Source: Spirochaetia bacterium
GTDB lineage: Bacteria > Spirochaetota > Spirochaetia > Treponematales > Breznakiellaceae
Assembly: GCA_026002265.1 (NCBI GenBank)
Contig: BOBG01000018.1
Span: forward strand, 1 to 25,847
Reading direction: 5' to 3'
DNA length: 25,847 bases
Part shown: in pieces, positions 509-22,497 of the stretch
Numbering within the stretch: position 1 is the first letter of the stretch
Layout of the letters: each line of letters opens with the position of its first letter
Made by a program: the position numbers and the translations under genes
Notes under the pieces: model-generated
Databases searched by the model: none
Told to the model about the DNA's origin: nothing
What the model saw: the letters and a program-made list of their open reading frames with translations, nothing else

Positions 509-521
509 GGGGTCAGACCTC
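509..521 (+). repeat. Single RAYT-associated 13-bp motif (T form)
   Basis: GGGGTCAGACCTC is followed by the family's usual CTGTATTTCTTTA tract, but the second motif of the pair is missing. It lies upstream of the amt sigma-54 promoter, in the interval where an activator would be expected to bind. The motif can fold as a GGGG/CCTC stem. Confidence 0.8.
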
Positions 522-557
522 TGTATTTCTTTATACTACAACGAAATAATAAAAAAC

Positions 558-577
558 GTAAAATCTAAAAATTTTAC
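558..577 (-). terminator. AT-rich inverted repeat with T-tract, possible terminator of the ABC exporter operon
   Basis: GTAAAAT and ATTTTAC form perfect 7-bp arms around a 6-base loop. On the minus strand the hairpin is followed by GTTTTTTATT. It lies about 105 bases behind the stop of the ABC exporter, so it could end that transcript. The stem is weak. The site is also about 100 bases upstream of the amt promoter and could instead be an operator or activator site. Confidence 0.35.
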
Positions 578-682
578 ATGAAGCCCTCTTTCAAGGGTAT
601 AATGAATCCGGAAAATATTACTTTTTTGTAGGTTTTGAACTGATCACCTTAGCTATACTACCGGAAAAGTCGGAATTCGGAA

Positions 683-2803
683 TTATTCCTTGATTCCGCC
701 AAATTGTAACCGGTATAAATTTGCATAGATGCCGTTTTTTTGAATCAAGGCTTCGTGTGTACCTTCTTCCGCAACTTTTCCACCGGAGAGTACCAAAATC
801 CGGTCCGAATGACGGATCGTAGAGAGCCGGTGCGCGATAACGATGGATGTACGCCCGGCCAACACTTTCTGCATACCCAGTTGAATGAGGCGTTCCGTTT
901 CAGTATCAATGGAACTTGTTGCTTCGTCAAGAATTACAACGGCCGGATTGTGAGCGATGACCCGTGCAAAACTAATCAGCTGCCGCTGACCGGAGGAAAT
1001 GTTGGTCGCACCTTCCGACAATTTTGTATGATATTGTTCTGGCAGTGCCATGATAAAATCATGTGCGTAGACTGCTTTGGCTGCTGCTTCAACCTGTTCG
1101 TCAGAAAGATCCAAACCGAGCCGGATATTATCCGCAACAGAACCGGAAAAAAGGAAGACATCCTGCAACACCGGCAACACTGCCCGGCGCAATTCCGGCA
1201 GTTCAATCTCCTGAATCGGCACTCCATCAAGGCTGATGGTCCCGGAATCAATATCCCAGAGCCGTGCCAAAACATTGGTGATCGTAGTTTTTCCTGCGCC
1301 GGTTGATCCGACAACCGCGGCCATTTCACCCGGATTCACCGTAAATGTCAAACCTTTAAGGATTTCCTCGCCGGTTTTGTAGGAAAAATGTACATCTTTA
1401 AAGTCAATATGCCCACGGGTAAAACCGTCAATTTTTCTCGTGCCGGCGTCGGGAATCTGTTCCTCGGTGTCAAGAATCGCAAAAATGCGTTCTCCCCCAG
1501 CCATTGCGCTCTGTAGTAGCGTGTATTTTTCGGCAATATCCATCACCGGGTTGTAAAACATTGCCACAAGATTCACAAATGCGATCGTTGTACCAAGCGA
1601 AAGTGTCAGATTCAGCACCATCATTCCGCCGACTGCTATCACCACCGCAGTTGTAACTATCGACAGCCACTCGACAACCGGCCGAAATGTTGCAAAAACG
1701 TACATTTCTCCGAGGTTTGCGTCCAGCAATTCCTTATTCCGCACCCCAAATTCCCGGCCGCTTTTCTTCTCACCCCGGAACAATTGCACAACTTGAACAC
1801 CGGAAAGGCGTTCCGCAAGATAGGCATTGACCCGTGATGAAGCGGTCCGTTGACGCCGAAACGCATCCCGCGCCCGAGTCCGGCTCAACATCGTGATGAG
1901 CAGGACCGGTGGAAGCGTAAGAATAGTAACCAGTGCAAGTTCCGATGACAAAATAAATAACGTGATCAATGCACCGGTCATAATCGAAAAATCTTTGAGA
2001 AAAGCGATCAAAACCGAGGTAAAAAATTCATTGATCGTTTCGACATCGCTCGTGAGCCGTGTGACGATTCTGCCGACCGGATGCCGTGACAGAAAAGCCG
2101 TAGATTGCGAGGCAGTTTTTTTGAAAAGCGCAAGCCGGAGATCCTTCATCACCTGCTGTGCGATCAATGTGGAATTCCATGTTTGAACAAAAGTAAACAA
2201 AAAGGTAAGAATCAAAATTCCAATGAGTGCCATCACCCACCGGGTAATAAAGGAAATATCTCCATGCCGCACTGTGGCGATGTCCGGCGTAGAAAACCGG
2301 TTGAGATCATCTTTCCGGATCGCAGCATAGTTCCCAGATTCTATAAACAGATCCGGGTTTTTTCCCATAATAGCGCGAGTCGAATCCGGAATCTCCGTAA
2401 AAACATACCATGCATCAGGCTCCACGATTCCGGAATCTTTCAGTTCACTTTCAACGTTACCCGGTAAATGTAGCTTTTGATTCTGAGGTACAAAAAGGTA
2501 GGATTCAATGGAAGCTGACCGCGGCAAATTTTTCAGACGCTCAAGCTCAAAACGGGTAGCATCGCTCAAGGGGACAGTCGATGCCCGGTCCATACGCAGG
2601 GCAAGAAATCTCGCCAGTACCGCATCATCGATCACCCGCTGCTGAATAATTGGTACAAACAATTCGCCGACCGTAGAAATTCCCAGTGCAATCAGTGTTA
2701 TGATCACCAATTTTTTGTACGGCTTGAGATATGACAAAATCCGTTTTGTTATACCGGAATCGTAACTTTTTACCACTTCTTCGACATCAAAATAATCAGA
2801 CAT
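683..2803 (-). CDS. ABC exporter, fused permease and ATPase (type IV/B-type half transporter)
   Basis: This 706-residue protein has an N-terminal six-helix exporter domain and a C-terminal ATPase: Walker A GSTGAGKT (499-506), Q-loop Q547, signature SSGQR (603-607), Walker B VVILDE (622-627) and H-loop H658. Between the first helix (about 30-55) and the second (about 187-207) is an extra region of roughly 120 residues, predicted outside the membrane. This makes the protein about 120 residues longer than a typical half exporter. The signature has SSGQ instead of SGGQ. The ATG has AAGGA five bases before it. The gene follows the helical protein at 2827-3573 by 23 bases, so the two are probably co-transcribed. 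The substrate cannot be deduced; lipid or drug export is usual for the family. As a half transporter it should act as a homodimer or with a partner elsewhere. Confidence 0.92.
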   Translation of the reverse strand: MSDYFDVEEVVKSYDSGITKRILSYLKPYKKLVIITLIALGISTVGELFVPIIQQRVIDDAVLARFLALRMDRASTVPLSDATRFELERLKNLPRSASIESYLFVPQNQKLHLPGNVESELKDSGIVEPDAWYVFTEIPDSTRAIMGKNPDLFIESGNYAAIRKDDLNRFSTPDIATVRHGDISFITRWVMALIGILILTFLFTFVQTWNSTLIAQQVMKDLRLALFKKTASQSTAFLSRHPVGRIVTRLTSDVETINEFFTSVLIAFLKDFSIMTGALITLFILSSELALVTILTLPPVLLITMLSRTRARDAFRRQRTASSRVNAYLAERLSGVQVVQLFRGEKKSGREFGVRNKELLDANLGEMYVFATFRPVVEWLSIVTTAVVIAVGGMMVLNLTLSLGTTIAFVNLVAMFYNPVMDIAEKYTLLQSAMAGGERIFAILDTEEQIPDAGTRKIDGFTRGHIDFKDVHFSYKTGEEILKGLTFTVNPGEMAAVVGSTGAGKTTITNVLARLWDIDSGTISLDGVPIQEIELPELRRAVLPVLQDVFLFSGSVADNIRLGLDLSDEQVEAAAKAVYAHDFIMALPEQYHTKLSEGATNISSGQRQLISFARVIAHNPAVVILDEATSSIDTETERLIQLGMQKVLAGRTSIVIAHRLSTIRHSDRILVLSGGKVAEEGTHEALIQKNGIYANLYRLQFGGIKE

Positions 2804-2826
2804 TGAATTCCTTCAACTATAACGAT

Positions 2827-3573
2827 TTAACCGCTAATATCGATCACCAAACTCCGCATATCAGCCGGAACCTGCGTGCCGGTCCGTCCATACACTTTAC
2901 CCTTCCGGTCCGGAAAAGCCTGATCGACAAAAGCCGAAATCGTAATTTTTGCCTCATCAAGATACGTGACGAGTGCATCGCCGGCAAGCCGTATGCCCAT
3001 CACCTTAAATTTGAGAGTCCGGTACAATTCACTTAGCTGTTTCCGCTCTTCCGGATCCATTACAGCAGTGGCTGCATAAAAATGAGTCTCTTCCGGCGCA
3101 TATTTCTGCCGTTCCTCTTCCAAAGTCTCGAAAGCTTCCTGCGCTGCACCGAGCGCACTCTGATGGGATTCAAAATCGGTCCATTCACGGGTAATAACCG
3201 CGGCCCGCACTTTTTCCTGCAATACTGCTATCGAATCCACCAATTCAATTTCCTGTTTGAGGATGCGTGCGAGCGGTGAATCTTCTTTTTCCTGATCAAC
3301 TATTCCAACCGGTTCCGGCACATTTTCTTCAGACAAATCTAGTTGTTCCGGATTCCGATCTTTTTGATCGAATTCTTCAGCAGACTCCAGAATAGTATCA
3401 TTAATCAATACCATTGGGGAAGCCTCCCCCTCGCTACAGACGCCTGCGGCGCCTTCCGCTACCCCCTCTGCGGGGACACCCCGCAACGCCCCGGGGACCA
3501 GAGTAGGTTCAGATTCTGAATTCTCCTGATCAATTATCCCGGCAGGTTCCGGCGTGCTTTGCTCTTCCGGCAT
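2827..3573 (-). CDS. Acidic helical protein of unknown function, weakly FlgN-like
   Basis: I do not recognise this 248-residue protein with confidence. Residues 1-100 are acidic, rich in Pro and Glu and probably disordered. Residues about 103-225 look like two or three long amphipathic helices, a pattern seen in FlgN-type flagellar chaperones; that assignment is tentative. No signal peptide is present. The ATG at 3573 is preferred over a TTG three bases earlier because GGGAG then has a six-base spacing. The N-terminal part contains an imperfect duplication (EPAGIIDQE near residue 10 and EPVGIVDQE near residue 88). Between the copies lies an in-frame block encoded by a GC-rich palindrome array. 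The gene is upstream of, and probably co-transcribed with, the ABC exporter. Confidence 0.7.
   Translation of the reverse strand: MPEEQSTPEPAGIIDQENSESEPTLVPGALRGVPAEGVAEGAAGVCSEGEASPMVLINDTILESAEEFDQKDRNPEQLDLSEENVPEPVGIVDQEKEDSPLARILKQEIELVDSIAVLQEKVRAAVITREWTDFESHQSALGAAQEAFETLEEERQKYAPEETHFYAATAVMDPEERKQLSELYRTLKFKVMGIRLAGDALVTYLDEAKITISAFVDQAFPDRKGKVYGRTGTQVPADMRSLVIDISG
3416..3497. repeat. GC-rich array of three palindromes inside a coding region
   Basis: Three hairpins lie side by side: GGGGA/TCCCC (3416-3429), CGCC/GGCG (3441-3451) and GCGGGG/CCCCGC with a 3-base loop (3470-3484). A GC-rich CCCCGGGG follows. The segment is far richer in G+C than its surroundings and resembles the intergenic palindromic elements elsewhere in the window, yet it is read through in frame as an Ala/Gly/Glu-rich peptide. 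It looks like a mobile palindromic element captured by a gene. Confidence 0.65.
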
Positions 3574-3621
3574 CAAAAACTCCCATACGATTTTATTGTT
3601 TTTAGCCGGTTATAACAACAT

Positions 3622-3634
3622 GGGGACAGACCTC
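3622..3634 (+). repeat. Single RAYT-associated 13-bp motif (A form)
   Basis: GGGGACAGACCTC is followed by the family's T-rich tract and ATATATAGTTACAA, but the second motif expected about 44 bases later is absent. It lies just upstream of the 2827-3573 gene, in its probable promoter region. Confidence 0.8.
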
Positions 3635-3662
3635 TTTATTTTTTTACAATATATATAGTTAC

Positions 3663-3689
3663 AAAAATTGATCGGTTGTATCAATTTTT
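3663..3689. terminator. Bidirectional hairpin terminator candidate
   Basis: AAAAATTGAT and ATCAATTTTT form a perfect 10-bp stem around the loop CGGTTGT. The A-tract on one side and T-tract on the other would give a T-run after the stem in either direction. It lies downstream of the minus-strand transposase and upstream of the 2827-3573 operon, where a minus-strand terminator would insulate the two. Confidence 0.45.
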
Positions 3690-3980
3690 CCGGAAAATAT
3701 TTCGGAACTGGATTCTCATAGATAGGTGTCCAGAGGATTTTTTCTCTGCCATATCTGCTGTGAATCGCTCCTACCAGGAGTCCGGTCAAGATCTATTCTG
3801 ATGAATCTATGAATCTGACAACCTTTCGATTCAGTTCATGGCTGATCGATACTATAATCCTATTTTTTTTAGGATAAACCACCGGAAAAGCGGTTTTTGA
3901 GACTATCCGGCTCCGTTTTTATAAAATTTTCGCCGGGATTTATACTGAAAGCACCGTATTTAGGCTACAATGTGCTAGGG
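3690..3980. other. Intergenic stretch without a recognisable gene
   Basis: No credible reading frame was found. Two small inverted repeats are visible: ATCCTA/TAGGAT around seven T's (3857-3875) and ACCG/CGGT followed by T's (3881-3898). Otherwise nothing is recognised. It separates the first transposase locus from the operon at 683-3573. Confidence 0.5.
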
Positions 3981-3981
3981 A

Positions 3982-4521
3982 TTAGGGACGGGGGTCTGTC
4001 CCCAGTAGCCGGTGCCTCGGCAATCGCTCCAACACCCACTCCGGTGCTGCACTTACTATCCGGGTAATCCCGGCTTGGTGGTGATGCAACCCGCCCCACG
4101 GCCAGTCCTCCGGCTTTTCCACGATACCAGCTTTTACCGGATTCTGATCGATATAGTTATAGACTGTTATGAAATCTTCATCGTCCACAATCTCCCGTGA
4201 GAAAAACCGGTCACCCCACAAATGGCCGGTTTTTCCATACTTATGATTCCACCGAATCGCGAGTACCATTTTGATCCATTTCATTATCACCGATAGACTT
4301 TGTCCAAGTTCCGGTGTGATCAAAAAATGGAAATGATTATCCATGATGCAAAAATTGTGAAGCTCGAACTTATAATTTTTTTTCGTTTTTGCTTCCTCGA
4401 TAACTTTCAGAAACATTTCCTTATCCTCACTATCCTGCAAATCAAATGCTTTCCGGTTAATTTCCGATGCCACATGGTATGTTTTTCCCTTGCTAGTATC
4501 TCCACGCTCTGGACGCGCCAT
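3982..4521 (-). CDS. REP-associated tyrosine transposase (RAYT, Y1/HUH family), copy 1
   Basis: This 179-residue single-domain Y1 transposase carries the HUH metal site at H63-F64-H65 (DNHFHFL), the GHLWGDRFFS block (99-108) and the catalytic-tyrosine helix YIDQNPVKAGIV, with Y123 the likely nucleophile. These are the hallmarks of RAYTs, which cut and join single-stranded REP hairpins. The length is full for the family and the frame is intact. The last codons (LLGTDPRP, stop) lie within the hairpin motif GGGGACAGACCCC that forms the downstream end of the locus. GAGGTCTGTCCCC lies about 100 bases upstream of the start. A close paralogue lies at 17368-17907: 7 residues differ against about 72 nucleotides. 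The ATG has AGGAGG just upstream (CCTCCT at 4526-4531). Confidence 0.93.
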   Translation of the reverse strand: MARPERGDTSKGKTYHVASEINRKAFDLQDSEDKEMFLKVIEEAKTKKNYKFELHNFCIMDNHFHFLITPELGQSLSVIMKWIKMVLAIRWNHKYGKTGHLWGDRFFSREIVDDEDFITVYNYIDQNPVKAGIVEKPEDWPWGGLHHHQAGITRIVSAAPEWVLERLPRHRLLGTDPRP

Positions 4522-4634
4522 AGATTCCTCCTTTTAACCGCCGGCACTACACAGCGATCAATTAAAGTACGGTTCGAGGTGATACTTTTGATTCAGTTTT
4601 CTGGAATTTTTTGCGAATTTTGGGGACAGACCTC
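3991..4634 (-). mobile_element. RAYT locus 1 bounded by REP-like hairpin motifs
   Basis: The unit runs from GGGGTCTGTCCCC (3991-4003) to GGGGACAGACCTC (4622-4634), so the ends are near-perfect inverted copies of one motif. Between the start codon and the outer motif the two loci share recognisable sequence (for example GTGATACTTTTGATTCAG at 4580-4597). The shared boundaries suggest a unit that was duplicated or moved as a whole. No target-site duplication was identified. Confidence 0.6.
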
Positions 4635-4678
4635 TAGCATTTATTTTCAATATATATAGTTACAAGGGGTCAGACCTC
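4622..4678 (+). repeat. Complete RAYT-associated motif pair (A form then T form)
   Basis: GGGGACAGACCTC at 4622 is followed by GGGGTCAGACCTC at 4666, 44 bases start to start. The spacer is AT-rich with ATATATAGTTACAA. This is the cleanest example of the paired unit and is joined directly to the outer end of RAYT locus 1. It ends about 10 bases from the stop codon of the downstream kinase gene. Confidence 0.85.
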
Positions 4679-4687
4679 GATCTCCTT

Positions 4688-5290
4688 TTAGATTGTCCAT
4701 AAACAAACAGACGGGATGGATGCCGCAAAACCAACTGCAAGTGGTATGAGGATGTTATCAACGTCAGCAGCCGGCATTAATTCGGCAATAGTTGCGGCGC
4801 AGGCACAGATGAGAGCCGCTGCTACATTATTCAAAACAAGATAAGTTGAAAAAAATGTTACCGCATAACAAGCGAGAGAACCTTCGATACTCTTTCCATG
4901 CAAAAAAGCGGGACGGATACGCCCTAAAAATTTTCCAACCATACCGGCACAACTGTCCCCAAAAGCAACCGCATAGATGGCGCTTGCCGCGGCCGGCGCC
5001 GGAAAAACTAATATTGTCACCGCCGCTCCCAGTCCAAGGGTACAGGGTCCCCATACAAAATGCTTTTGATCCCGGATTCTAGACGATTTTTCTGTCAAAA
5101 AAGAAATAAGCGGGATTCGGATTCCGGATTGACGGCATTTTTCGGCAATTATATACAATGCTGTTCCGGCGAGGAGGATTGCCGCTGTTGCGGGACCGTG
5201 TAATGAAGAAAGCGGAACCGCTGCCGCAATAAGAACATGAAGCGATTTTCTCAATAATTCTTGTGAAAATTCCGGCTTTGTAATCAACAT
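4688..5290 (-). CDS. CTP-dependent polyprenol/diacylglycerol kinase family membrane protein
   Basis: This 200-residue polytopic protein carries the dolichol/phytol kinase signature: ELLRKSLH near residue 10, AFGDSCAGMVGKFLGR near 108-123, the KSIEGSLA loop near 132-139, and a C-terminal ELMPAADVDNILIP. Members phosphorylate a lipid alcohol such as a polyprenol, phytol or diacylglycerol, usually with CTP, in the inner membrane. The substrate cannot be told from sequence. The ATG at 5290 is preferred because family homology starts shortly after it; an in-frame TTG at 5347 would add 19 residues, but no ribosome site is visible there. It diverges from the MATE gene. Confidence 0.82.
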   Translation of the reverse strand: MLITKPEFSQELLRKSLHVLIAAAVPLSSLHGPATAAILLAGTALYIIAEKCRQSGIRIPLISFLTEKSSRIRDQKHFVWGPCTLGLGAAVTILVFPAPAAASAIYAVAFGDSCAGMVGKFLGRIRPAFLHGKSIEGSLACYAVTFFSTYLVLNNVAAALICACAATIAELMPAADVDNILIPLAVGFAASIPSVCLWTI

Positions 5291-5333
5291 TTCCGGACAA
5301 ATAATAGTCTTTTTTACAAAAAAAAATGAAGGC

Positions 5334-5371
5334 TTGAATGTTATCAAATATTTTGTTAAACTTTATAAAGT
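5334..5371 (+). promoter_or_regulatory. Possible promoter and 12-bp palindrome before the MATE gene
   Basis: TTGAAT (5334-5339) and TAAACT (5357-5362), 17 bases apart, form a weak sigma-70-like promoter. The perfect palindrome ACTTTATAAAGT (5360-5371) overlaps its -10 and could be an operator. It precedes the AAGGA ribosome site by five bases. This is a pattern match only. Confidence 0.35.
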
Positions 5372-5388
5372 AATATAAGGAAAATACT

Positions 5389-6765
5389 ATTCGTTCTTTA
5401 CAAAAACTTGGACCATGGTCATTTTACCGTGAAGCGTTGAGCATTGCCTTTCCGGTTATGCTGCAACAACTTATTATGAGTATGGTTTCTTTGATCGACA
5501 ACTTTATGGTTTCCGGACTCGGGGATCAAAGTATGGGCGCGGTCAATGTTGCCAATCAAATCAATTTTATCTACATTGTTTTTGTTAATACTATATGCGG
5601 TGCAGGCGGAATTTACCTCGCACAATTCCGGGGCGCCGGCAATACCGGAGGGATGCAGCATGCATACCGGTTCAAAATCATTTTTTCGCTCGCAGTTTCC
5701 CTAATATTTTTAGTACTATACAATACAATTCCCAAACAAATGCTTGCAATGATGACACCCGGCAACAGCGATCAAACGGAAATTATCGCAATCGGCTCGC
5801 GCTACCTTTATTTTACATCATTTTCGTTGATTCCCATCGCTATTTCCTCATCTATTGGCTCATCATTCCGGGAAATCGGAAAACCAATCATTCCGTTGAT
5901 AATTTCAGCCAGTGCAACATTGATCAACACTATCGGCAACTGGTTTTTAATTTACGGCAATATGGGAGCGCCACGGTTGGAAGTTGAAGGTGCGGCCATT
6001 GCAACGATTATCGCCCGCGGCTACGAACTTTTGATGTTTTTACTCTATGTGGCGTTCCGGAAAACACACTTTTTTGTAGGTTTTCACCGGGTACTCCATA
6101 TAAACAAAAAACTCATCCGGGAAATTTTTAGCAAATCATTGATGATGTTTGCCTCAGAATTATCATGGATCAGCTCCGAAACGATCATGAATGCACTCCT
6201 CAACGGCCGCGGCGGCGCAGAAACACTCGCGGGCATGGCCGGCGGATTCACCATTGCGAATATTCTCTTTCTCGTGTTCAGCGGCGTATGGACAGCGTCC
6301 ACAGTCATCATCGGCGGAAGCCTCGGCGCAGGCAAACTGAATGAAGCCCGGATCCGGGGTGAATGGATCAAATCCGGGGCAGTTATCGCGGGAATCGTCA
6401 TTGCAGGGGCCGGAATCGGTGTGTCAATTGCCATTATCCCCAAAGTTTTTTTCAACCTCACACCTGCGGCTCAGTCGATCAGCCAGGGAATCGTCTTTGT
6501 TATCGTTGCCTACCTGCCGTTGTGGGCATTACTCAACGCCCAGTTCGCAATTTCCCGCGCCGGCGGCGACACCGCGATGGGAATGTATGCGGATGTTTCA
6601 GTCAATACCATTCTCTTTATACCCGGCGCTTTTCTTTTAGCATATTTTACCGGCATGGGGCCAGTGCCAATGTTCGCGATTCTCAAACTCACCGACATCA
6701 TAAAATATTTTGTGGCTCGGCATTTTTTCAAAAAAGAACGGTGGCTTAAAAATTTAACAGTATAG
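5389..6765 (+). CDS. MATE family multidrug/metabolite efflux transporter
   Basis: This polytopic protein of about 458 residues has twelve hydrophobic segments and typical MATE N-terminal sequence (EALSIAFPVMLQQ, then SLIDNFMVSGLGD). Members export organic cations or other small molecules, driven by Na+ or H+. The first standard start codon in frame is the TTG at 5437, but that would cut into conserved N-terminal sequence and has no ribosome site. Upstream codons are open to a stop at 5371, and an ATT at 5389 lies seven bases behind AAGGA. I therefore place the start at the ATT, which is rare; a sequence error or a frameshifted ATG at 5415 are alternatives. REP-like repeats follow the gene. 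Confidence 0.88.
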   Translation: MRSLQKLGPWSFYREALSIAFPVMLQQLIMSMVSLIDNFMVSGLGDQSMGAVNVANQINFIYIVFVNTICGAGGIYLAQFRGAGNTGGMQHAYRFKIIFSLAVSLIFLVLYNTIPKQMLAMMTPGNSDQTEIIAIGSRYLYFTSFSLIPIAISSSIGSSFREIGKPIIPLIISASATLINTIGNWFLIYGNMGAPRLEVEGAAIATIIARGYELLMFLLYVAFRKTHFFVGFHRVLHINKKLIREIFSKSLMMFASELSWISSETIMNALLNGRGGAETLAGMAGGFTIANILFLVFSGVWTASTVIIGGSLGAGKLNEARIRGEWIKSGAVIAGIVIAGAGIGVSIAIIPKVFFNLTPAAQSISQGIVFVIVAYLPLWALLNAQFAISRAGGDTAMGMYADVSVNTILFIPGAFLLAYFTGMGPVPMFAILKLTDIIKYFVARHFFKKERWLKNLTV

Positions 6766-6805
6766 TTTTTCACTTGAAAAGTGTCGCAAATGTATATCGA
6801 AAAAT

Positions 6806-6914
6806 GGGGACAGACCTCTGTATTTCTTTACAATGTAACGAGATAACTGGGGTCAGACCTCTAGTGAAATTTTTTCAACAACCACCCTCGTTGGGGCTAA
6901 AGGGGTCAGACTTC
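6806..6914 (+). repeat. Motif pair plus a third degenerate RAYT-associated motif
   Basis: GGGGACAGACCTC at 6806 and GGGGTCAGACCTC at 6849 form a pair 43 bases apart. A third copy with one change (GGGGTCAGACTTC) follows at 6902. The array fills the space behind the MATE gene. Short open frames across it look like chance readings of the repeats. Confidence 0.82.
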
Positions 6915-6950
6915 GACCTGATAATCAGAAACCGGCTGATAAAAAACAGG

Positions 6951-6972
6951 ACTCTTCTTAAGAATGAAGAGT
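6951..6972. repeat. Inverted repeat upstream of the 7003 gene
   Basis: ACTCTTC and GAAGAGT are perfect 7-bp arms around an 8-base loop. On the minus strand the stem is followed by CCTGTTTTTT, which is terminator-like, but no minus-strand gene ends here. An operator for the 7003 gene is an alternative. Confidence 0.4.
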
Positions 6973-7002
6973 AACTGACCGATTAAATTTTTAGGGTAGA
7001 TC

Positions 7003-7557: not shown

Positions 7558-7584
7558 AACATTTCAGCTTTTTTCAAAATACAC

Positions 7585-8772: not shown

Positions 8773-9843
8773 GTGAATGAACGTCTGAATTCGCTCTTGC
8801 AGCGTTATGCGACTGTTCTGATCCTTGTTCAGGATCCGAATCTGGTAAAAGATCAAAGCCAGTACCGGAATGTCATGCGGGAGTATGCTCAACTTGGTGA
8901 GATCGCATCTGCCAATGCAGAAATCGAAACATTGACGCTCCAAGCCAACGATGCTCAGGTTCTCTTTCAAGAGGAAAAAGATCCGGATATGCGTGAATTG
9001 GCAAAAGAGGAGCTGCATGCGTTGGAATCCCGGCTCGGCGAAGCTGAAAACCGGCTGAAATTACTTTTGATCCCAAGGGATCCGCTTGACGAAAAAAATA
9101 TTATCATGGAGATCCGTGCCGGCACCGGTGGAGATGAAGCCGCTCTTTTTGTTGCTGATCTATTCCGGGTCTATTCCCGGTTTGCAGAAACAAAGGACTG
9201 GAAATTTGAGGTGATGAGCATCAACGAAACAGAACTCGGCGGCATCAAGGAGATCATCTTTTCTATCAGCGGAAATAATGTTTATGAAAATCTCCGTTAT
9301 GAATCCGGTGTGCACCGGGTTCAACGAGTACCGGTCACGGAATCAGCCGGAAGGATTCACACATCGGCAGTAACGGTGGCGGTTTTGCCGGAAGCTGATG
9401 AAACTGAAATTGACATTAAACCGGATGATCTCCGCATCGATGTAATGCGTGCCGGAGGTCCCGGGGGTCAATGCGTTAATACAACTGATTCGGCCGTGAG
9501 AATCACTCACCTTCCATCCGGAATCGTTGTCCATTGCCAGGATGAAAAAAGTCAGATAAAAAATAAAGCAAAGGCGATGCGTATTTTACGTGCGCGTGTG
9601 TACGAAGCTGAAGCGGCAAAGGCTCAAGCTGAACGTGCGGAAGCCCGAAAGAATCAAGTTGGATCCGGCGACCGTTCAGAGCGGATCCGTACCTATAATT
9701 TTCCTCAAAACCGGCTCACGGATCACAGGATCAATCTTACTCTTTACAAACTCGATCTTATTATGCAAGGTGATATAGCGGAACTTTTTGATGCGCTGAA
9801 ACTTTCTGCGCGGGAAGATTTGCTCCGTGCAACTGCTTCATAG
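8773..9843 (+). CDS. prfA: Peptide chain release factor 1
   Basis: This 356-residue class I release factor has the GGQ peptidyl-hydrolysis motif at 231-233 and the RF1 codon-recognition tripeptide PVT at 187-189 within [16 protein letters not shown]. It therefore reads UAA and UAG. Length and motif order are normal. The residue after GGQ is Cys (GGQCVN), where many RF1 proteins have His. The GTG at 8773 is the only reasonable start; the ribosome site is weak (AGG at 8761-8763). In many bacteria prmC, which methylates the GGQ glutamine, follows prfA. Here it does not, and an uncharacterised membrane-protein pair follows instead. Confidence 0.97.
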
Positions 9844-13336: not shown

Positions 13337-13355
13337 TAAGGAAAAAGGAGATTGT

Positions 13356-13751: not shown

Positions 13752-13777
13752 ATCTATATTTATAATCCTTTTTAGGA

Positions 13778-15729: not shown

Positions 15730-15805
15730 CTACAGGTTAAGAATAAGAATCCTGTTATAATTATCCTTATCAGATTTATGGAACGAAAACCGAGATTTAG
15801 ATTTT

Positions 15806-15862
15806 GGGGACAGACCTCTTGCATTTTTTTACAGTATATATATTTACACGGGGTCAGACCTC
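15806..15862 (+). repeat. Complete RAYT-associated motif pair
   Basis: GGGGACAGACCTC at 15806 and GGGGTCAGACCTC at 15850 are 44 bases apart. The spacer holds the family's T-run and a TATATATATTTACA tract. It lies in the convergent gap between the TPR gene and the MFS gene and is immediately followed by a different palindromic element. Confidence 0.85.
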
Positions 15863-15894
15863 GATCCCGGTTTCCGGATAAAACTTTCAATTAC

Positions 15895-15970: not shown

Positions 15971-17236
15971 TGATTCTGGATTCTTTATACTCGCTGCATA
16001 TAAGCTATTTAAAAGTCCCAAAAATGCGGAGAGTGCAAAAAGTACTTCGATTCCGGTTACTTGCCAAATCCAGCCGCCCAATAATGCTATAAAAATTGAT
16101 ATAACATGATTAACAGAAATTCCGGTGCTTAATGTTGCTGTGATTTCTTCCGAATTGTCTGCTATAGATTGCACATATACGTTAGTTGCCATACTTGCCA
16201 GCGAAATAATTGAATCCAGTACATAATTGACACATACAATAATAAAGGCAATATTGTGCGGGAAAAACCGGTGTGAAAAACCATAAAAAAAGCAGACAAT
16301 GATAAGAATCAGCGTATCAGTTACCATGATGAATTTGTAACCGAGTTTGTCTATGAGTTTTCCAATTAACGGCGAAAAAATCGTACCGCAGATCGCACAA
16401 ATACCGAGAAGTAAAGCAATAAGCGAAGTGTCTGCTCCGTATTCCCGGATCAAAACGAGCGGGGCAAACGTGATAAAAATTTGTTTCCGGGCTCCGTAAA
16501 ATACTTCCAGCATATAATATTTGGAGAATTTTTTTGCAAAATAGAAACGCCGCCGGCTAACACTGATAGCAGATTCATGCATGGAGAATGCTACGAGAGT
16601 CGCACCGAGCATGAGCGCAATAGCAATTGCAAATATCACCTTGAATTGAGCCGTATCTGTGCGTGCAAAACCAAGCCGGCCGAAAACGAAAAAGATTACG
16701 GAAACGACAAGATAACCCGCGATATTCCCTAAATTGCCGATCGTACTCGTGATTCCAAGTGATGCCCCGCTCCGTTCCCGCCGGGCAAGATCCAGAGAAA
16801 TCGTACTTTTAACCGGCATGATGATGTGTTCGCCGAAGCTAAATACAACCATGAAAAGGACTACGGTTACTTTACCTGTTGAAGAGCCTCCATCTGGATT
16901 TCCCAGCATTAAACCAACGACACCAGCTAGCATAATGGCGATTCCGATTTTAAATATCCGGGATTCGCTAAACCGGTACATCGCTGCGAGGATCAGTACT
17001 ACAAGGAGTCCCGGAATTTCCCGGAAAAATTCCACTACTCCTCGCTCAAAAGGTTTGATATTGAGAATTTCCACCAGATAATTATCCTGAACGCCTTTGT
17101 AGAGTCCATAGGCAATTCCGGAAAGAATAAGCGCGGTGAGAAAACGCATCGGTTTTGCAGCGTCACGGTAAATTGAATGTAATTGCGGAATCATATTACT
17201 TGTACTAATGGAAAAAGGAAGCTGAATCAAGTACAA
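15968..17236 (-). CDS. Major facilitator superfamily transporter
   Basis: This 422-residue protein has twelve hydrophobic segments in two halves around a basic cytoplasmic loop near 225-242 (SRRRFYFAKKFSKYY). The loop after helix 4 (SLDLARRERSGASLGITSTIGNLGN) is MFS-like. The substrate cannot be inferred. The TTG at 17236 has AAGGG six bases upstream. An ATG at 17194 would give a protein 14 residues shorter but has no ribosome site. The stop codon is the first base triplet of a composite palindromic element, so the end of the gene may have been shaped by that insertion. RAYT locus 2 lies upstream. Confidence 0.88.
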   Translation of the reverse strand: MYLIQLPFSISTSNMIPQLHSIYRDAAKPMRFLTALILSGIAYGLYKGVQDNYLVEILNIKPFERGVVEFFREIPGLLVVLILAAMYRFSESRIFKIGIAIMLAGVVGLMLGNPDGGSSTGKVTVVLFMVVFSFGEHIIMPVKSTISLDLARRERSGASLGITSTIGNLGNIAGYLVVSVIFFVFGRLGFARTDTAQFKVIFAIAIALMLGATLVAFSMHESAISVSRRRFYFAKKFSKYYMLEVFYGARKQIFITFAPLVLIREYGADTSLIALLLGICAICGTIFSPLIGKLIDKLGYKFIMVTDTLILIIVCFFYGFSHRFFPHNIAFIIVCVNYVLDSIISLASMATNVYVQSIADNSEEITATLSTGISVNHVISIFIALLGGWIWQVTGIEVLFALSAFLGLLNSLYAASIKNPES

Positions 17237-17367
17237 ATATTTCCCTTGCCCTTTTCACAGTACAATACCGGAAAAATAATTTTGAGGTTGTTTCCGGATT
17301 ATTTCTAGGCCGGAATGTAGTCGATTTTACTGGTACAGTGACGGAAGTGGGGTGAGGAGGCCGGGGA

Positions 17368-17907
17368 TTAGGGACGGGGGTCTGTCCCCAGTAGCCGGTG
17401 CCACGGCAACCGCTCCAGTACCCACTCCGGCGCTGCACTCACTATCCGGGTAATCCCGGCTTGGTGGTGGTGCAATCCACCCCACGGCCAGTCCTCCGGT
17501 TTCTCCACAATCCCTGCTTTTACCGGATTCTGATCGATGTAATTGTAGACTGTGATGAAATCTTCATCGTCTATAATTTCCCGGGAAAAAAATCGGTCAC
17601 CCCACAAATGTCCGGTTTTTCCATACTTATGATTCCAACGAATTGCGAGAACCATTTTGATCCATTTCATTAGCACAGATAAACTTTGGCCAAGCTCTGG
17701 GGTAATTAAAAAGTGGAAATGATTATCCATAATACAGAAGTTGTGAAGCTCGAACTTATAGTTTTTCTTAGCTTTCGCCTCCTCAATAACTTTCAAAAAC
17801 ATCTCTTTGTCCTCATCATCCTGTAGATCAAAAGCCTTCCGGTTGATTTCTGAGGCAACATGATAGGTTTTTCCTTCACTCGTATCTCCACGATCTGGCC
17901 GTGCCAT
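17368..17907 (-). CDS. REP-associated tyrosine transposase (RAYT, Y1/HUH family), copy 2
   Basis: This 179-residue paralogue of the protein at 3982-4521 has all active-site residues intact: H63-x-H65 and the Y123 helix (NYIDQNPVKAGIV). The differences from copy 1 are E5D, K11E, S31D, T46A, I79L, V112I and R169W. At the DNA level I count about 72 differences in 540 bases, so nearly all are silent. The gene ends inside GGGGACAGACCCC, as in copy 1, and has the same AGGAGG ribosome site. It lies alone between the MFS gene and a decayed permease. Both loci appear able to make active protein. Confidence 0.93.
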   Translation of the reverse strand: MARPDRGDTSEGKTYHVASEINRKAFDLQDDEDKEMFLKVIEEAKAKKNYKFELHNFCIMDNHFHFLITPELGQSLSVLMKWIKMVLAIRWNHKYGKTGHLWGDRFFSREIIDDEDFITVYNYIDQNPVKAGIVEKPEDWPWGGLHHHQAGITRIVSAAPEWVLERLPWHRLLGTDPRP

Positions 17908-18000
17908 AGATTCCTCCTCGATCGCACTGTGCGATCAATAAGATCATGGGATGAAGTGATACTTTTGATTCAGTTTTTCGAAATTTTGGGGACAGACCTC
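17377..18000 (-). mobile_element. RAYT locus 2 bounded by REP-like hairpin motifs
   Basis: The unit runs from GGGGTCTGTCCCC (17377-17389) to GGGGACAGACCTC (17988-18000). It has the same layout as locus 1, but the outer motif is single rather than paired. The upstream flank shares GTGATACTTTTGATTCAG (17957-17974) with locus 1. A short palindrome, GATCGCAC/GTGCGATC (17920-17936), is present here and partly lost in locus 1. Confidence 0.6.
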
Positions 18001-18039
18001 CGTCGCTGTAAACACCGGTTATTTGCACTCACCAAGCCG

Positions 18040-18384
18040 CTAGTCTTTGACTCCGCTTGCTGTAACGCCGGAAATAATATAATGTGACATACACGCGTAA
18101 AAAATTAGTATAGGCACGATGGATATCGCGATGCCAAGATAAATACTGCCGTATTCAGTGCGATAGATGTCGCCGCGGAGCGACTGAACTAACATCGGTA
18201 GTGTGTACTTTTTTGAGACAAAATTAAGTACAAATGGCGTAAAAAAGTTATTCCACGAAGCTACAAATGCAAAAATTGCCTAAACCGACAGTGCTGGAGT
18301 TAGTACTGGCAGCACAATTATGTTAAAAATTTTAAACTCGCCTGTACCGTCGATGCGTCCCGCGTCAATCAATTCTTTCTTCAA
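18040..18384 (-). pseudogene. Decayed sugar ABC transporter permease (MalG type), C-terminal remnant
   Basis: Minus-strand translation gives about 114 residues of a binding-protein-dependent permease without frameshift. It opens with the EAA-loop sequence ELIDAGRIDGTGEFKIF, continues through VASWNNFFTPFVL and ends ISIVPILIFYACMSHYIISG with a normal stop. A TAG at 18280-18282 interrupts it where the family usually has Gln, a one-base change from CAG. Upstream of 18384 the rest of the gene is missing. It belongs to a different permease subfamily from LplB/LplC in the next operon, so it is a relic of another sugar importer and not a duplicate. Confidence 0.85.
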
Positions 18385-18488
18385 AAATTATTTTTGTGAT
18401 TCCCTATCATCAATCGCTCATGTCTGATCCGGAACTATAGTGCCTCTTGCAAAGTGCCTCATATTTCGGTGTAAAAAAAATACAGCTA

Positions 18489-18576
18489 GAGGTCTGACCC
18501 CATTTTTCAAATCTTTAGATTTTATCAAATTTTTACTATTTTATTGTATTATAAAGAAATACAGAGGTCTGTCCCC
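18489..18576 (-). repeat. Reverse-oriented RAYT-associated motif pair with extended spacer
   Basis: Read on the minus strand, GGGGACAGACCTC (18564-18576) comes first and GGGGTCAGACCTC (18489-18501) second, in the same A-then-T order as other pairs. The starts are 75 bases apart instead of 43-44; the spacer has gained about 30 AT-rich bases. The pair lies upstream of the lplA promoter. Confidence 0.82.
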
Positions 18577-18623
18577 ATTTTGGAATACACGGTGATTGCC
18601 GCTCGCTTTTTTTCAAAAAAAAC

Positions 18624-18653
18624 TTGACAGTTTTCTAAACGCCTTGTTATATT
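18624..18653 (+). promoter_or_regulatory. Sigma-70-like promoter of the lpl operon
   Basis: TTGACA (18624-18629) is followed 17 bases later by TTATAT (18647-18652), or 18 bases later by TATATT. A leader of about 25 bases carries the very strong ribosome site GGGGGAGG. This suggests high expression of the binding protein. Confidence 0.7.
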
Positions 18654-18683
18654 AAATCACTCTATTTTTTGGGGGAGGTTTTT

Positions 18684-20330
18684 ATGAAAAAAGCATTGTT
18701 TATGCTTATTTCGCTCTCGTTTTTCGCCGGATCTGTGTTTGCAAATGGGCAGAATCAAGGCAGACCGGTGAGCACGGATCCGAATTCTCCGATCACCATT
18801 TCGATCTACACGCAACAGCCCCGGCAGCAGCCGCCGGCTGACAACAAGATCGACAGGTGGATCAAGGAAAAGTACAACGTCAGCTTTTCATGGGATATTC
18901 TCGTTGGAGATAGTATCCAAAAGCGTGGACTTATGATCGCGGGCCGGGATTATCCGGACATGATCGAGATAAACGAAACTGCGTTTATTGATGCAGGCGC
19001 GTGTATTCCGCTCGAAGACTTGATCGAACAGTATGGACCGAATATCAAACGGCACTATGCATCTGTCTGGGAGCAGATGAAATCGCCGGACGGCCACATT
19101 TATTATCTGATCAACTGGGGCGTTTACGAAGGTCTCAACCAGAGTCCCTACTACGGCGACTCCGCGCTGTGGGTTCAGAAGGAAGTTCTCAAGGATGCCG
19201 GCTATCCAAAAGTCGTGACGATGGATCAATATTTTGATCTGCTCATCAATTATGCGAGGAAGTACCCGACCATCAACGGTATGCCGACCATTCCGTTCAC
19301 GATTCTCACCTATGATTGGCACGCATTTTGTCTGTGGAATCCGCCGAATTTCCTCGCCGGCTACCCTAACGATGGAAACGGTACGGTGGATCCGAGAACG
19401 TATCAGTACAAAAACTTCTTCACGCAGGATATTTCCAAACGTTGGTTCAAAAAATTGAACGAGCTCAACGCGCAGGGTTATATTGACCGGTCGGCATTTG
19501 TTGATAATTACGATCAATATCTTGCAAAAATCGCTTCCGGCCGGGTCCTCGGTCTCCACGATCAGCGCTGGCAATTCCAGCAGGCCGATGATTCTCTACG
19601 GGATCAAGGTATATACAACCGGACAATGGCTCCGTTACCGATAGTTTTTGATTCTACGATCCGGCCACGCTACCGGAATATTCCGATCCCCAATATCGGC
19701 CGTGGCATTGGAATCAGCATCAACGCCAAGAATCCGGTTCGGATTATCCAATTTATCAATGAACTTCTGTCAGAAGATTTCCAGCGGACAATGGAATGGG
19801 GTATTGAAGGTCAGGATTGGCAGCGCAACGCACAGGGACAGCCCTACCGGACTCCCCAGCAGCGGGCAAATTGGCAGGATCAGGTGTGGGAACTCCACAA
19901 CCGGAATGTGCTGCTCCGTGAAGTTATGCCTACATGGGAAGGCTCGTTTAGTGACGGCTACCCCACAGTGTTGGACGATTATTTCCCGGAACGTGAAGCC
20001 CTCACCCGTGCCGAAGACAAGGAACTCTGGGCCGCTTATGGTGTAACGAGTAATGCAGAATTGATGGACAAAAATCCGCCGGCCAACTCCGTGTGGTTCC
20101 CGACTTGGAGTATGCCCAATCCGCCGGATGGATCTGATGCACAGATGGCGCTTCAGCGTGCTGAGCAAGTGATGCGTCAATATTTGCCGAGGGCCATTCT
20201 CGCTCCGCCGGCTCAATTTGAAAGTATCTGGGCAGAGTATGTCCGGGAAATGAACAGTGCCGGAATTGCCAGGTATGAAGCGTATATGCAGGAACAATTA
20301 AACATCCGTATCAAGGCGTGGAGTAAGTAA
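18684..20330 (+). CDS. lplA: LplA-type extracellular solute (sugar)-binding protein
   Basis: This 548-residue protein belongs to the large LplA/YtcQ class of sugar-binding proteins (usual length 500-560). The N-terminal signal peptide is MKKALFMLISLSFFAGSVFA, with signal peptidase I cleavage after VFA. There is no lipobox Cys, whereas most relatives are lipoproteins, so the protein should be free in the periplasm. Aromatic-rich stretches (YYLINWGVYEGLNQSPYYGD, WHAFCLWNPPNFL) are typical of carbohydrate binders. The ATG at 18684 follows GGGGGAGG; a TTG at 18669 is an artefact of the open frame. lplB starts 18 bases after its stop. The ligand is probably an oligosaccharide; the exact sugar cannot be told. 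Confidence 0.9.
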   Translation: MKKALFMLISLSFFAGSVFANGQNQGRPVSTDPNSPITISIYTQQPRQQPPADNKIDRWIKEKYNVSFSWDILVGDSIQKRGLMIAGRDYPDMIEINETAFIDAGACIPLEDLIEQYGPNIKRHYASVWEQMKSPDGHIYYLINWGVYEGLNQSPYYGDSALWVQKEVLKDAGYPKVVTMDQYFDLLINYARKYPTINGMPTIPFTILTYDWHAFCLWNPPNFLAGYPNDGNGTVDPRTYQYKNFFTQDISKRWFKKLNELNAQGYIDRSAFVDNYDQYLAKIASGRVLGLHDQRWQFQQADDSLRDQGIYNRTMAPLPIVFDSTIRPRYRNIPIPNIGRGIGISINAKNPVRIIQFINELLSEDFQRTMEWGIEGQDWQRNAQGQPYRTPQQRANWQDQVWELHNRNVLLREVMPTWEGSFSDGYPTVLDDYFPEREALTRAEDKELWAAYGVTSNAELMDKNPPANSVWFPTWSMPNPPDGSDAQMALQRAEQVMRQYLPRAILAPPAQFESIWAEYVREMNSAGIARYEAYMQEQLNIRIKAWSK

Positions 20331-20348
20331 TTTTTAGAGAGGACTGAT

Positions 20349-21290
20349 ATGAATAAGCAGCAGCCTGTACTGAACCGTCCAAAGACTTTTACTGAGAAAT
20401 TGTTCATTCAACGACAGTTAGTGTTCATGTCGGTCCCCATTGTTTTGTATATAATTCTTTTTTCGTACGTTCCAATCTGGGGCTGGACCATGGCCTTTCA
20501 GAATTTCCGGCCGGCCCGGACCTTTTTTCAACAAGAATGGGTCGGCTTTAAATGGTTCGTCTTTCTCTTTACTGACAAAATATTTCTACGGACAATCCGG
20601 AATACCCTTGCCATGAGTCTGATCAACACGGCCCTTGGTTATATCACCGCGATTGGTTTCGCGTTGCTGTTAAACGAAGTTAAAAATGTCCTCTTTAAAC
20701 GCACCATTCAAACAATTTCGTACCTTCCGCATTTTCTTTCATGGGTTATAGTTACCGGTTTAGTTTCGAGTATGCTTGCCGTGGAAAACGGTACGATCAA
20801 CGATATTCTTTTATTTTTTCACCTTATTGACGAGCCGCTTTTGTGGTTGAGCAAGCCGAATTATTTTTGGGGAATCATCGGTGGAACCTATGTGTGGAAA
20901 GAAGTTGGTTGGAATACGATCATTTATTTAGCAGCAATGGTCGGCATCGATCCGACTCTTTACGAAGCTGCCGAAATTGATGGATGCAACCGGTACCATA
21001 AAATGTGGCATATTACCCTTCCCGGCATTAAACCGACCATTATTATTATGTTAATTATGAGTATCGGCCACATTCTCGACGCCGGATTCGAGATGCAATA
21101 CCTGCTCCGGAATGGACTTATTCAAGATGTGGCGGACACCATCGATATTTATGTTCTTATGTACGGCTTGCAGCACTCGAATTATTCTATGGCAACTGCT
21201 GCCGGAATGTTCAAAAATGTGGTCAATATCAGCCTTATTTTTATTGCAAATTCAATAGCCAAACGTGCCGGCGAGGAGCGTTTAATATGA
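20349..21290 (+). CDS. lplB: LplB-type ABC sugar permease
   Basis: This 313-residue inner-membrane permease has six hydrophobic segments and the EAA cytoplasmic loop at 206-227 (EAAEIDGCNRYHKMWHITLP), which docks to the ATPase. The N-terminal region and helix 1 (VLYIILFSYVPIWGW) are typical of the LplB/YteP group. The start ATG has GAGAGGA eight bases before it. The stop overlaps the lplC start (ATGA), so the two are translationally coupled. It pairs with LplC to form the translocation pore. Confidence 0.94.
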   Translation: MNKQQPVLNRPKTFTEKLFIQRQLVFMSVPIVLYIILFSYVPIWGWTMAFQNFRPARTFFQQEWVGFKWFVFLFTDKIFLRTIRNTLAMSLINTALGYITAIGFALLLNEVKNVLFKRTIQTISYLPHFLSWVIVTGLVSSMLAVENGTINDILLFFHLIDEPLLWLSKPNYFWGIIGGTYVWKEVGWNTIIYLAAMVGIDPTLYEAAEIDGCNRYHKMWHITLPGIKPTIIIMLIMSIGHILDAGFEMQYLLRNGLIQDVADTIDIYVLMYGLQHSNYSMATAAGMFKNVVNISLIFIANSIAKRAGEERLI

Positions 21291-22195
21291 AAATCGGTAC
21301 TGCATCAAAGATCGAAAATATTGTTTTTAACAGCGTAAATGTGCTCATTATGATCCTCGTAATGATCTGTACGATCTATCCGTTTTGGAATACCATCGCA
21401 ATTTCATTTAACGAAGCCACCGACACGATCCGGGGCGGCGTTAATTTTTTCCCCCGGAAATTCTCCATGCAGAATTACAAAGCAGTGTTCGCATCCGGAA
21501 CAATTTACAATGCATTTTTCGTTTCAGTTATCCGGACCATTATCAACACAGTTACGAGCGTTTTTTTTACCGCAATGGTCGCCTTTGCATTATCCCGGCG
21601 TGAGTTTGTTCTGAATAAAACCCTTACGACGATCATTATTCTTTCGATGTATTTAAATGCCGGTTTAATCCCAACGTATTTTTTAATGCGCGGACTCCAT
21701 CTGACCAACACCTTCCTCGTGTATGTAATTCCGGGAATTGTCAATGCGTTCAATTTTGTCGTTATCCGGACCTATATGCGCTCGCTTCCGGAGAGCATTA
21801 TCGAGTCAGCCCGGATTGACGGGTGCGGTGATTTTTGGATATTTCTCCGGATTATTCTGCCCCTAAGCTTGCCGGTTCTTGCGACCATTGCCCTTTTTGT
21901 GGCGGTCGGTGCGTGGAACTCGTGGTTTGACACGATGATCTACAATTCCGGCCGGGCCTATCTCCACACCCTCCAGTATAAATTGATGGAATATTTGCAG
22001 GCGAGCCAGAGTCAGGCAAAAACGGCCGCAGATGTCGGCTCAATGAGTCTGTCCGGAAACACTTCCAGTATGGTTACCCCGGTGAGTATCCGGGCGGCGA
22101 TCACCGTAGTTGCAGCACTGCCGATTCTGGTCGTGTATCCCTTTATGCAGCGGTATTTTGTCGTAGGTTTGAATGTCGGTGGAGTTAAAGAATAA
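21287..22195 (+). CDS. lplC: LplC-type ABC sugar permease
   Basis: This 302-residue permease has six hydrophobic segments and an EAA loop at 172-196 (ESARIDGCGDFWIFLRIILP). The N-terminus (YPFWNTIAISFNEA) and the YLNAGLIPTYFLMRGL segment are typical of the LplC/YtcP group. It forms a heterodimer with LplB. No ATPase gene follows, as is usual for this class; a shared MsmK/MsmX-type ATPase encoded elsewhere is expected to energise it. A strong palindromic element starts nine bases after the stop and probably ends the transcript. Confidence 0.94.
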   Translation: MKIGTASKIENIVFNSVNVLIMILVMICTIYPFWNTIAISFNEATDTIRGGVNFFPRKFSMQNYKAVFASGTIYNAFFVSVIRTIINTVTSVFFTAMVAFALSRREFVLNKTLTTIIILSMYLNAGLIPTYFLMRGLHLTNTFLVYVIPGIVNAFNFVVIRTYMRSLPESIIESARIDGCGDFWIFLRIILPLSLPVLATIALFVAVGAWNSWFDTMIYNSGRAYLHTLQYKLMEYLQASQSQAKTAADVGSMSLSGNTSSMVTPVSIRAAITVVAALPILVVYPFMQRYFVVGLNVGGVKE

Positions 22196-22203
22196 GAGAA
22201 GTT

Positions 22204-22325
22204 AGTAGGGGGTGTACTCCCCCTGCCTCTATCTCGCCAGGCTCGATACCCGGGCATCGAGCCTGGCGAGATGCCGGCACCCCCCTCCCTAAGTGAGAGC
22301 GTTCCCTGAGCCTGTCGAAGGGAAC
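22204..22325 (+). repeat. Composite palindromic element B behind lplC, with adjoining REP
   Basis: Its left end GGGGGTGTACTCCCCCTGCC and right end CCGGCACCCCCCTC match element A at 15895. The core is a perfect 17-bp inverted repeat (22231-22247 and 22256-22272) around ACCCGGGC, unrelated to the core of element A. A second REP follows: GTTCCC/GGGAAC arms (22301-22306, 22320-22325) around TGAGCCTGTCGAA, the sequence type found inside element A. The large stem would be a strong transcript-end structure, though no T-tract follows. Confidence 0.75.
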
Positions 22326-22336
22326 ACCGGAAGAAG

Positions 22337-22420
22337 TCCACGAATACACACGAATATCCACGAATGAATACTTCTTACTAATTATTTTTCTTATTCGTGT
22401 ACATTCGTGACATTCGTGGA
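22337..22420. repeat. Phased CACGAAT array facing inverted copies
   Basis: CACGAAT occurs at 22339, 22349 and 22359, exactly 10 bp apart. The inverted form ATTCGTG occurs at 22393, 22403 and 22412. The outermost arms TCCACGAAT and ATTCGTGGA pair perfectly. The 27-base centre is AT-rich. It can fold as a long imperfect cruciform or offer six similar binding sites. Confidence 0.7.
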
Positions 22421-22441
22421 TCCTATTTAAAAATTCAGATC

Positions 22442-22497
22442 GAGGTCTGACCCCAAATATCTCATTATGTTGTAAAGAAATATGGAGGTCTGTCCCC
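22442..22497 (-). repeat. Reverse-oriented complete RAYT-associated motif pair
   Basis: On the minus strand GGGGACAGACCTC (22485-22497) precedes GGGGTCAGACCTC (22442-22454). The motif starts are 43 bases apart and the spacer carries the ATTTCTTTACAA tract. It is the last member of the family in the window. Confidence 0.85.

Follow-up and report, generated by a model that had tools for sequence, protein, structure and literature searches.

What is the short repeat that recurs around two transposase genes on contig BOBG01000018.1, and how is it connected with them? The analyzed stretch (25,847 nt, hereafter the window) belongs to a Treponema-like genome, G000, and carries many copies of the 13-mer GGGGWCAGACCTC, a near-palindrome, together with two genes for REP-associated tyrosine transposases (RAYTs). 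A sequence-only reading had proposed a unit resembling a bacterial interspersed mosaic element (BIME), built from direct, non-identical repeats and probably mobilized by the two transposases. Judged from sequence, a RAYT-type transposon has this 13-mer as its end sequence: one copy precedes the transposase gene and another lies within the 3' end of that gene. This element, of the RAYT class (Y1 HuH, TIRtron-like), probably still moves as a unit and often inserts beside its own end.

The window was scanned for the 13-mer on both strands, with up to two mismatches allowed. Thirteen exact copies of GGGGWCAGACCTC were found, nine on the plus strand (509, 3622, 4622, 4666, 6806, 6849, 15806, 15850 and 17988) and four on the minus strand (18489, 18564, 22442 and 22485). 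One-mismatch copies lie at 6902 and, on the minus strand, at 3991 and 17377; the latter two both read GGGGACAGACCCC and are located within the 3' ends of the RAYT genes. The earlier reading had listed the 13 exact sites and the degenerate site at 6902, but had overlooked 3991 and 17377. The total of 16 matches compares with a chance expectation of 0.57 and a maximum of 4 across 100 shuffles. In the whole genome, 344 exact copies of GGGGWCAGACCTC were counted, and none of a reversed-pattern control. Furthermore, the six most overrepresented hexamers (1.364 Mb; expected count above 100) all lie within the 13-mer or its complement.

Sequence similarity identifies both transposase genes (3982-4521 and 17368-17907) as RAYTs of the Y1 HuH type. 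Both proteins score above the cut-off of 80 bits of the NCBIfam model REP_Tyr_transpos (NF047646; 93.2 and 93.0 bits), and the IS200 model NF033573 gave 25 bits, under its cut-off of 55. A Pfam search returned Y1_Tnp only, and the sole solved relative found by sequence search with gene 1 was TnpArep (PDB 4er8; E value of 1.3e-7). The genes and the putative mobile units to which they belong are as follows.

3982-4521, minus strand: RAYT gene 1, 179 aa, HuH motif NHFH, Y motif YIDQNP (NCBIfam, Pfam, PDB)
17368-17907, minus strand: RAYT gene 2, 179 aa, 96% identical to gene 1
3852-4665, minus strand: putative mobile unit 1, approximate; right edge placed by loss of conservation and uncertain by some nucleotides
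3991-4003, minus strand: right-hand 13-mer GGGGACAGACCCC in RAYT gene 1, encoding part of the C-terminus GTDPRP
4622-4634, plus strand: left-hand 13-mer of unit 1, A form (A or T at the variable position defines the form)
4635-4665, plus strand: left terminus of unit 1; its last six bases are TTACAA, or TTGTAA when read on the gene strand, and conservation between copies begins here
4666-4678, plus strand: outer 13-mer, T form, adjoining the terminus; read as a resident neighbor site (rival reading: part of the left end)
17236-18000, minus strand: putative mobile unit 2, approximate; left terminus beyond the 13-mer missing
17377-17389, minus strand: right-hand 13-mer GGGGACAGACCCC in RAYT gene 2
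17988-18000, plus strand: left-hand 13-mer of unit 2, A form

The window's two genes are 2 of the 50 matches to gene 1 in G000, which gives no support to the proposal that they in particular were the source of the repeats. Alignment of 31 close copies with their flanks revealed abrupt edges, the left one TTGTAA-like and the right one approximately 150 nt past the stop codon, with a few copies ending earlier. Where the left edge is present, the left 13-mer lies 30 to 32 nt inside it; this 13-mer is the A form in 29 of the 31 copies, the T form in one and another sequence in one. The right 13-mer, GGGGACAGACCYC, is present in 30 of the 31 at the 3' end of the coding sequence, inverted in G000 relative to the left one. 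Since the 13-mer is both the end of a transposase unit and coding sequence, this unit appears closer to an insertion sequence than to a BIME. Of the BIME-like unit originally proposed, the direct doublets described below remain. The H-x-H motif is kept in all 31 close copies and Y[IV]xxN[PA] in 30 of them.

In 13 more distant RAYT copies of G000, read by eye, other palindromes occupy both places; examples are TAGGACAGTCCTA, with the C-terminus YRTVLP, and AGGGTCAGACCCT, with LGSDP. RAYT subfamilies in which the palindrome and the encoded C-terminus change together were noted at C58:710, C14:3038, C14:19619, C30:18731 and C2:36517, with further such copies at C111:1432, C7:2245, C4:7380, C3:47280 and C147:383 (contig:position). 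Structured RNA in the conserved 3' tail was considered and rejected, as RNAalifold predicted no structure from 30 of the 31 copies (the one without a matching right 13-mer was set aside). CCGG recurs in these 3' tails and occurs at 1.35 times expectation in 1.364 Mb of G000 (17,341 versus 12,867).

We compared 58 genomes, including G000 and the congeners G001, G002 and G003. RAYT matches number 42 in G001 and at least 59 in each of G002 and G003 (157 and 68 at first look, respectively). In most congener copies examined, 13-mers mark both edges of the unit and lie on one strand. Conservation begins at the left 13-mer and fades at the right 13-mer or approximately 15 to 20 nt beyond it; in G002, a weaker shared stretch extends beyond the right 13-mer. 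G001 units carry GGGGACAGACCYC, in the same form as in G000, immediately after the stop codon. G002 units carry TAGGACAGACCTC and GAGGACAGACCTC, the latter in frame, and G003 units carry CAGGTCAGACCTA and CAGGTCAGACCTG or near forms. Genome counts in G000, G001, G002 and G003 were 344, 935, 8 and 190 for GGGGWCAGACCTC, and 20, 42, 1113 and 405 for AGGWCAGACCT; the other 54 genomes have at most 24 copies of the former (G038) and at most 16 of the latter (G025). The repeat form thus tracks the RAYT lineage, and the edges of the units lie at or near 13-mers, which bears out the suggested tie between repeats and RAYTs. In the 30 genomes without a RAYT match, GGGGWCAGACCTC has at most two copies each, so the repeat is not equally abundant where no such transposase was detected.

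These data also bear on the idea that selection on position maintains the 13-mers as sites used by the host, whether as terminators, nucleoid sites or regulatory sites. Consistent with it, 154 of 185 free-standing copies lie outside open reading frames (ORFs) of at least 120 aa, which make up 83% of the sequence (by simple longest-ORF calls), and a T-run follows many copies. However, copies in gaps between tandem genes have no strand preference (35 opposite, 29 same), the density of copies is alike in divergent gaps (1.16 per kb) and convergent gaps (1.11 per kb), and the form shifts jointly with the RAYT ends in G002 and G003. We regard host sites as highly improbable; the strand and gap-density data disfavor terminators and host regulatory sites.

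Copies outside the two units include singles and closely spaced doublets.

509-521, plus strand: single T-form 13-mer (13-mer scan)
3622-3664, plus strand: solo left end without a gene, A-form 13-mer and terminus, with an 18-nt stretch identical to that of unit 1
6806-6861, plus strand: A-then-T doublet, 43 bp
6902-6914, plus strand: degenerate T-form copy, one mismatch
15806-15862, plus strand: A-then-T doublet, 44 bp
18489-18576, minus strand: A-then-T doublet, 75-bp spacing
22442-22497, minus strand: A-then-T doublet, 43 bp

The five pairs of the window (4622/4666, 6806/6849, 15806/15850, 18564/18489 and 22485/22442) each have the A form first and the T form second when followed along their own strand, with start-to-start distances of 44, 43, 44, 75 and 43 bp, exactly as had been claimed. 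The TTACAA reported for the spacer is present as well, but is confined to part of the units.

Order and spacing were then counted in a wider sample of G000, a metagenome-assembled genome (83% complete, 381 contigs). The counts cover 63 contigs (1,364,259 of 2,528,893 bp, 54% of the genome), namely C1 to C48 and 15 picked for RAYT copies, so that RAYT-linked sites are overrepresented; C1, C2, C4, C5, C16, C17 and C19 to C31 were covered in part. Among same-strand pairs 42 to 44 bp apart, 39 were A then T, 10 A then A, 5 T then T and 1 T then A. With one pair counted per 2-kb locus (38 loci), the corresponding numbers were 26, 8, 3 and 1 (A then T versus T then A, sign test, P = 2e-7). The A-then-T order is thus strongly preferred without being obligatory; the preference described for the window extends to the contigs sampled, but its strict form does not.

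The direct orientation of the doublets proved more general. Neighboring 13-mers within 90 bp lie on the same versus the opposite strand in ratios of 73:1, 71:6, 25:2 and 11:0 in G000, G001, G002 and G003 (the sister-species counts are from 20, 20 and 17 stretches, respectively, chosen by RAYT copies or motif hits). Same-strand doublets are therefore real, as had been suggested, dominate in all four species and appear general within the genus. In contrast, G001 doublets contain A forms only and are broadly spaced, and those of G002 and G003 have other spacings and few A-then-T pairs. A role of the A-then-T order and 43-bp spacing in the mechanism is thus not supported, and the order as a mechanistic requirement was rejected, because none of the three sister species has such a rule. 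Both features look instead like properties inherited from one composite that was amplified in G000. In sequence, this composite looks like a transposase unit's left end (13-mer and terminus) with another 13-mer beside it. Its parts can be seen in the window: 3622-3664 is a solo left end, and there are doublets at 6806, 15806 and 22485.

Could the doublets and arrays have arisen purely by replication slippage and unequal recombination, after the repeats had spread once with transposons and without involvement of the transposase? Tandem arrays with shared flanks (C11, C12, C30) and one displayed array difference of exactly one 43-bp unit would fit, but the majority of doublets are at loci of their own (38 when each 2 kb is counted once) and have flanks unrelated to one another, which makes this explanation improbable. 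Several other arrangements were noted. At C15:17622-17906 of G000, T-form copies follow each other at 38- to 40-bp steps with a different spacer. At C12:12455-13374 and C30:9043-9542, blocks of 125 to 173 bp, each with a doublet, are repeated whole. In G001, tandem 13-mers approximately 22, 43 and 67 bp apart (C5:27046-27512 and C79:21-339) have a CRISPR-like look, judged from motif positions only.

We favor a model in which the transposase recognizes two 13-mers, one ahead of its own gene and the other at the gene's 3' end, and mobilizes the intervening DNA. The near-palindromic 13-mer would form a small hairpin in single-stranded DNA. Free-standing singles and doublets would be gene-less left ends and remnants. 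New copies would often insert directly beside a resident 13-mer, and repeated rounds, together with local duplication, would build same-strand doublets and arrays. Since unit ends are mostly of the A form and the neighboring sites mostly of the T form, such insertion would yield the A-then-T order in G000. In this model, mobility itself is an inference, as are insertion next to resident 13-mers, the recognition of hairpins and the single-strand chemistry; the last draws on the finding that TnpAREP recognizes REP hairpins strand-specifically in vitro (PMC8266576, partial text).

The outer 13-mer is informative in this respect. A second 13-mer adjoins the left terminus exactly in 16 of the 31 units (13 T form, 3 A form; 15 found by script, plus C67, which has a longer spacer). 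In 12 units the identical terminus stands against unrelated sequence, and in 3 the terminus is missing. On the tree of 29 of the 31 copies, with C67 scored as lacking the outer 13-mer, its presence required 9 changes, compared to a mean of 9.9 in shuffled data (187 of 500 shuffles were as low). This scatter favors a pre-existing neighbor over an inherited part of the unit.

Alternatively, the T-form 13-mer could be integral to the left end, so that the doublet is a REPIN-like nonautonomous unit, the A-then-T order is inherited and copies without the outer 13-mer are shortened. Indeed, the spacer columns of 35 distinct 43-bp doublets covary on one hairpin axis (summed excess of 0.88; next, 0.37), the two 13-mers often pair with each other in folds, and free doublets read A then T like the left end of the unit. 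However, 12 of the 31 units begin at the identical terminus without an outer copy, the sequence beyond the outer copy varies among copies, and outer copies are scattered on the tree. Furthermore, the A-then-T doublet is no rule in the sister species, and by inspection the 13-mers match at 9 of 13 positions as inverted repeats and at 12 of 13 as direct repeats. We consider such a unit rather unlikely, and the outer copy is more probably a pre-existing neighbor than half of a REPIN-like doublet.

Several observations weigh against the favored model. In the outer-copy tree, resolution is poor, with 19 of 26 inner branches open, and an A-form outer site is common to the sister copies C35 and C7, as expected from inheritance. 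A search for filled and empty site pairs found none, and no single and doublet with both flanks alike (0 pairs). Three doublet/triplet pairs were detected, and the one displayed differs by a 43-bp array step that slippage could produce. In G000, unlike the sister species, the conserved unit reaches approximately 150 nt beyond the right 13-mer, and the left and right 13-mers are inverted but lie on the same strand in G001 to G003. Finally, the presence of RAYTs is insufficient by itself: G015 (59 weaker RAYT matches, best E value of 1e-14) and G025 (29 matches) have few copies of either repeat pattern; their RAYTs may use other repeats. G015 yielded 156 first-look candidates and harbors another expanded Y1 transposase family.

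The transposase copies are diverged and intact. The 31 close copies differ at approximately 15% of DNA positions (median dN, 0.046; dS, 1.12), with a median ratio of nonsynonymous to synonymous divergence (dN/dS) of 0.044, a Nei-Gojobori value with dS near saturation; since fourfold sites differ at 0.387, the ratio in G000 would be nearer 0.08. Restricted to the 22 copies that are exactly 179 aa long, the comparison gave a median protein identity of 0.922, DNA identities of 79 to 93% and a dN/dS of 0.041. Nearest neighbors had a median dS of 0.68, a dN/dS of 0.05 and a DNA identity of 0.881. The ratio was 0.14 for the 13 distant G000 copies, and 0.13 (n = 18), 0.11 (n = 22) and 0.06 (n = 11) for copies examined in G001, G002 and G003. 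Internal stops were absent among the matches listed in G000 (45 of 50; C36 is partial). Of all possible single changes in gene 1, 4.4% would introduce a stop. In the sister species, copies with stops occur but are few among the matches listed.

In a tree of 115 proteins, including 19, 22 and 11 copies of G001, G002 and G003, the close copies of each species need one origin, and branching within the groups is star-like; the groups of G001 and G003 are well supported, those of G000 (71/91) and G002 (69/49) modestly so. When NF047646 was run against 296 Spirochaetota, G000 had 48 first-look candidates and G025 had 31; none of the remaining genomes listed, which do not include G001 to G003, exceeded 22. 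These data show intact genes under purifying selection with almost no decay, and species-specific expansions. The constraint would be expected if an element persists only through the transposase that it encodes itself (cis preference), and a host function would account for it too. A recent burst of identical copies was not seen among the assembled copies, though a short-read metagenome assembly would miss identical ones. Transition-driven hypermutation was not seen either (transition/transversion ratio of 1.06 at fourfold sites).

In the literature, RAYTs are treated as domesticated transposases that are inherited vertically in single copy and whose function is unknown (PMC8049555, partial text); generally, each REP type has a single full-length gene that does not transpose as a unit (PMC6006769). 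The 50, 42, at least 59 and at least 59 matches in G000 to G003 depart from this single or low copy number. Tentatively, and with less confidence than we place in the moving unit itself, we suggest that the RAYTs of this Treponema genus are a living population of self-targeting transposons and not domesticated single genes. Each persisting copy would have been kept functional, host lineages would have rematched transposase and end repeat, and insertion beside ends would have built hundreds of same-strand repeats. If true, this population would represent an intermediate stage, still extant, between IS200-type transposons and domesticated REPtrons.

Among the closest described counterparts are TIRYT/TIRtron elements, whose GGGGWSAS terminal repeats may overlap the 3' end of the gene (Di Nocera et al. 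2013, PMC3733652, partial text). Shared with them, as far as that text goes, are a RAYT-like transposase, GGGGWCAG ends that fit GGGGWSAS, genomic repeat families and the lack of a GTAG tag. The fit applies to GGGGACAG or GGGGTCAG in G000 and G001 and to part of the G003 copies, but not to the G002 form. The tens of transposase copies per genome, same-strand doublets and one-strand ends in G001 to G003 differ from the TIRtrons of the same partial text. In addition, 20 of 26 TIRYTs belong to subclass 2.1, with a median of 238 aa and a C-terminal helix-turn-helix (Quentin 2018, PMC6006769), whereas the protein here has 179 aa and, according to Pfam, no such extension, which is typical but not obligatory.

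With REPtrons, the element shares the transposase family, repeats that flank the gene and are scattered intergenically, and a lineage-specific repeat (PMC2817692, partial text; PMC6006769). It differs in its many RAYT copies and in its direct instead of inverted doublets (73 same versus 1 opposite in G000). RAYT genes bounded by two inverted palindromes have been described (Nunvar 2010, PMC2817692, partial text); the 13-mers are inverted in G000 but lie on the same strand in G001 to G003. The canonical REP tag GT[AG]G abuts 0 of 232 sites on either strand and occurs within 8 nt at 0 sites on one strand and 3 on the other. IS200/IS605 elements are similar in having a single small Y1 HuH transposase, end palindromes and many copies per genome. 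However, the motif here is the class 2 Y...NP and not Y...Q, the NF033573 score is below its cut-off, and copies are 79 to 93% identical in DNA, compared to about 99% (Table 1, PMC6006769).

Our literature search returned no account of multicopy RAYTs in spirochetes and no paper with both "RAYT" and "Treponema"; "transpos" was not found in the text of PMC13067680, on termite-gut spirochetes. A genus with dozens of intact, constrained RAYTs and changing repeat forms offers a natural series for the evolution of end recognition. This series bears on whether RAYT units move alone and on what keeps every copy functional. It also indicates that BIME-like arrays can consist of direct, untagged repeats. 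One neighbor in the window is an ordinary housekeeping gene, that for peptide chain release factor 1, at 8773-9843 on the plus strand.

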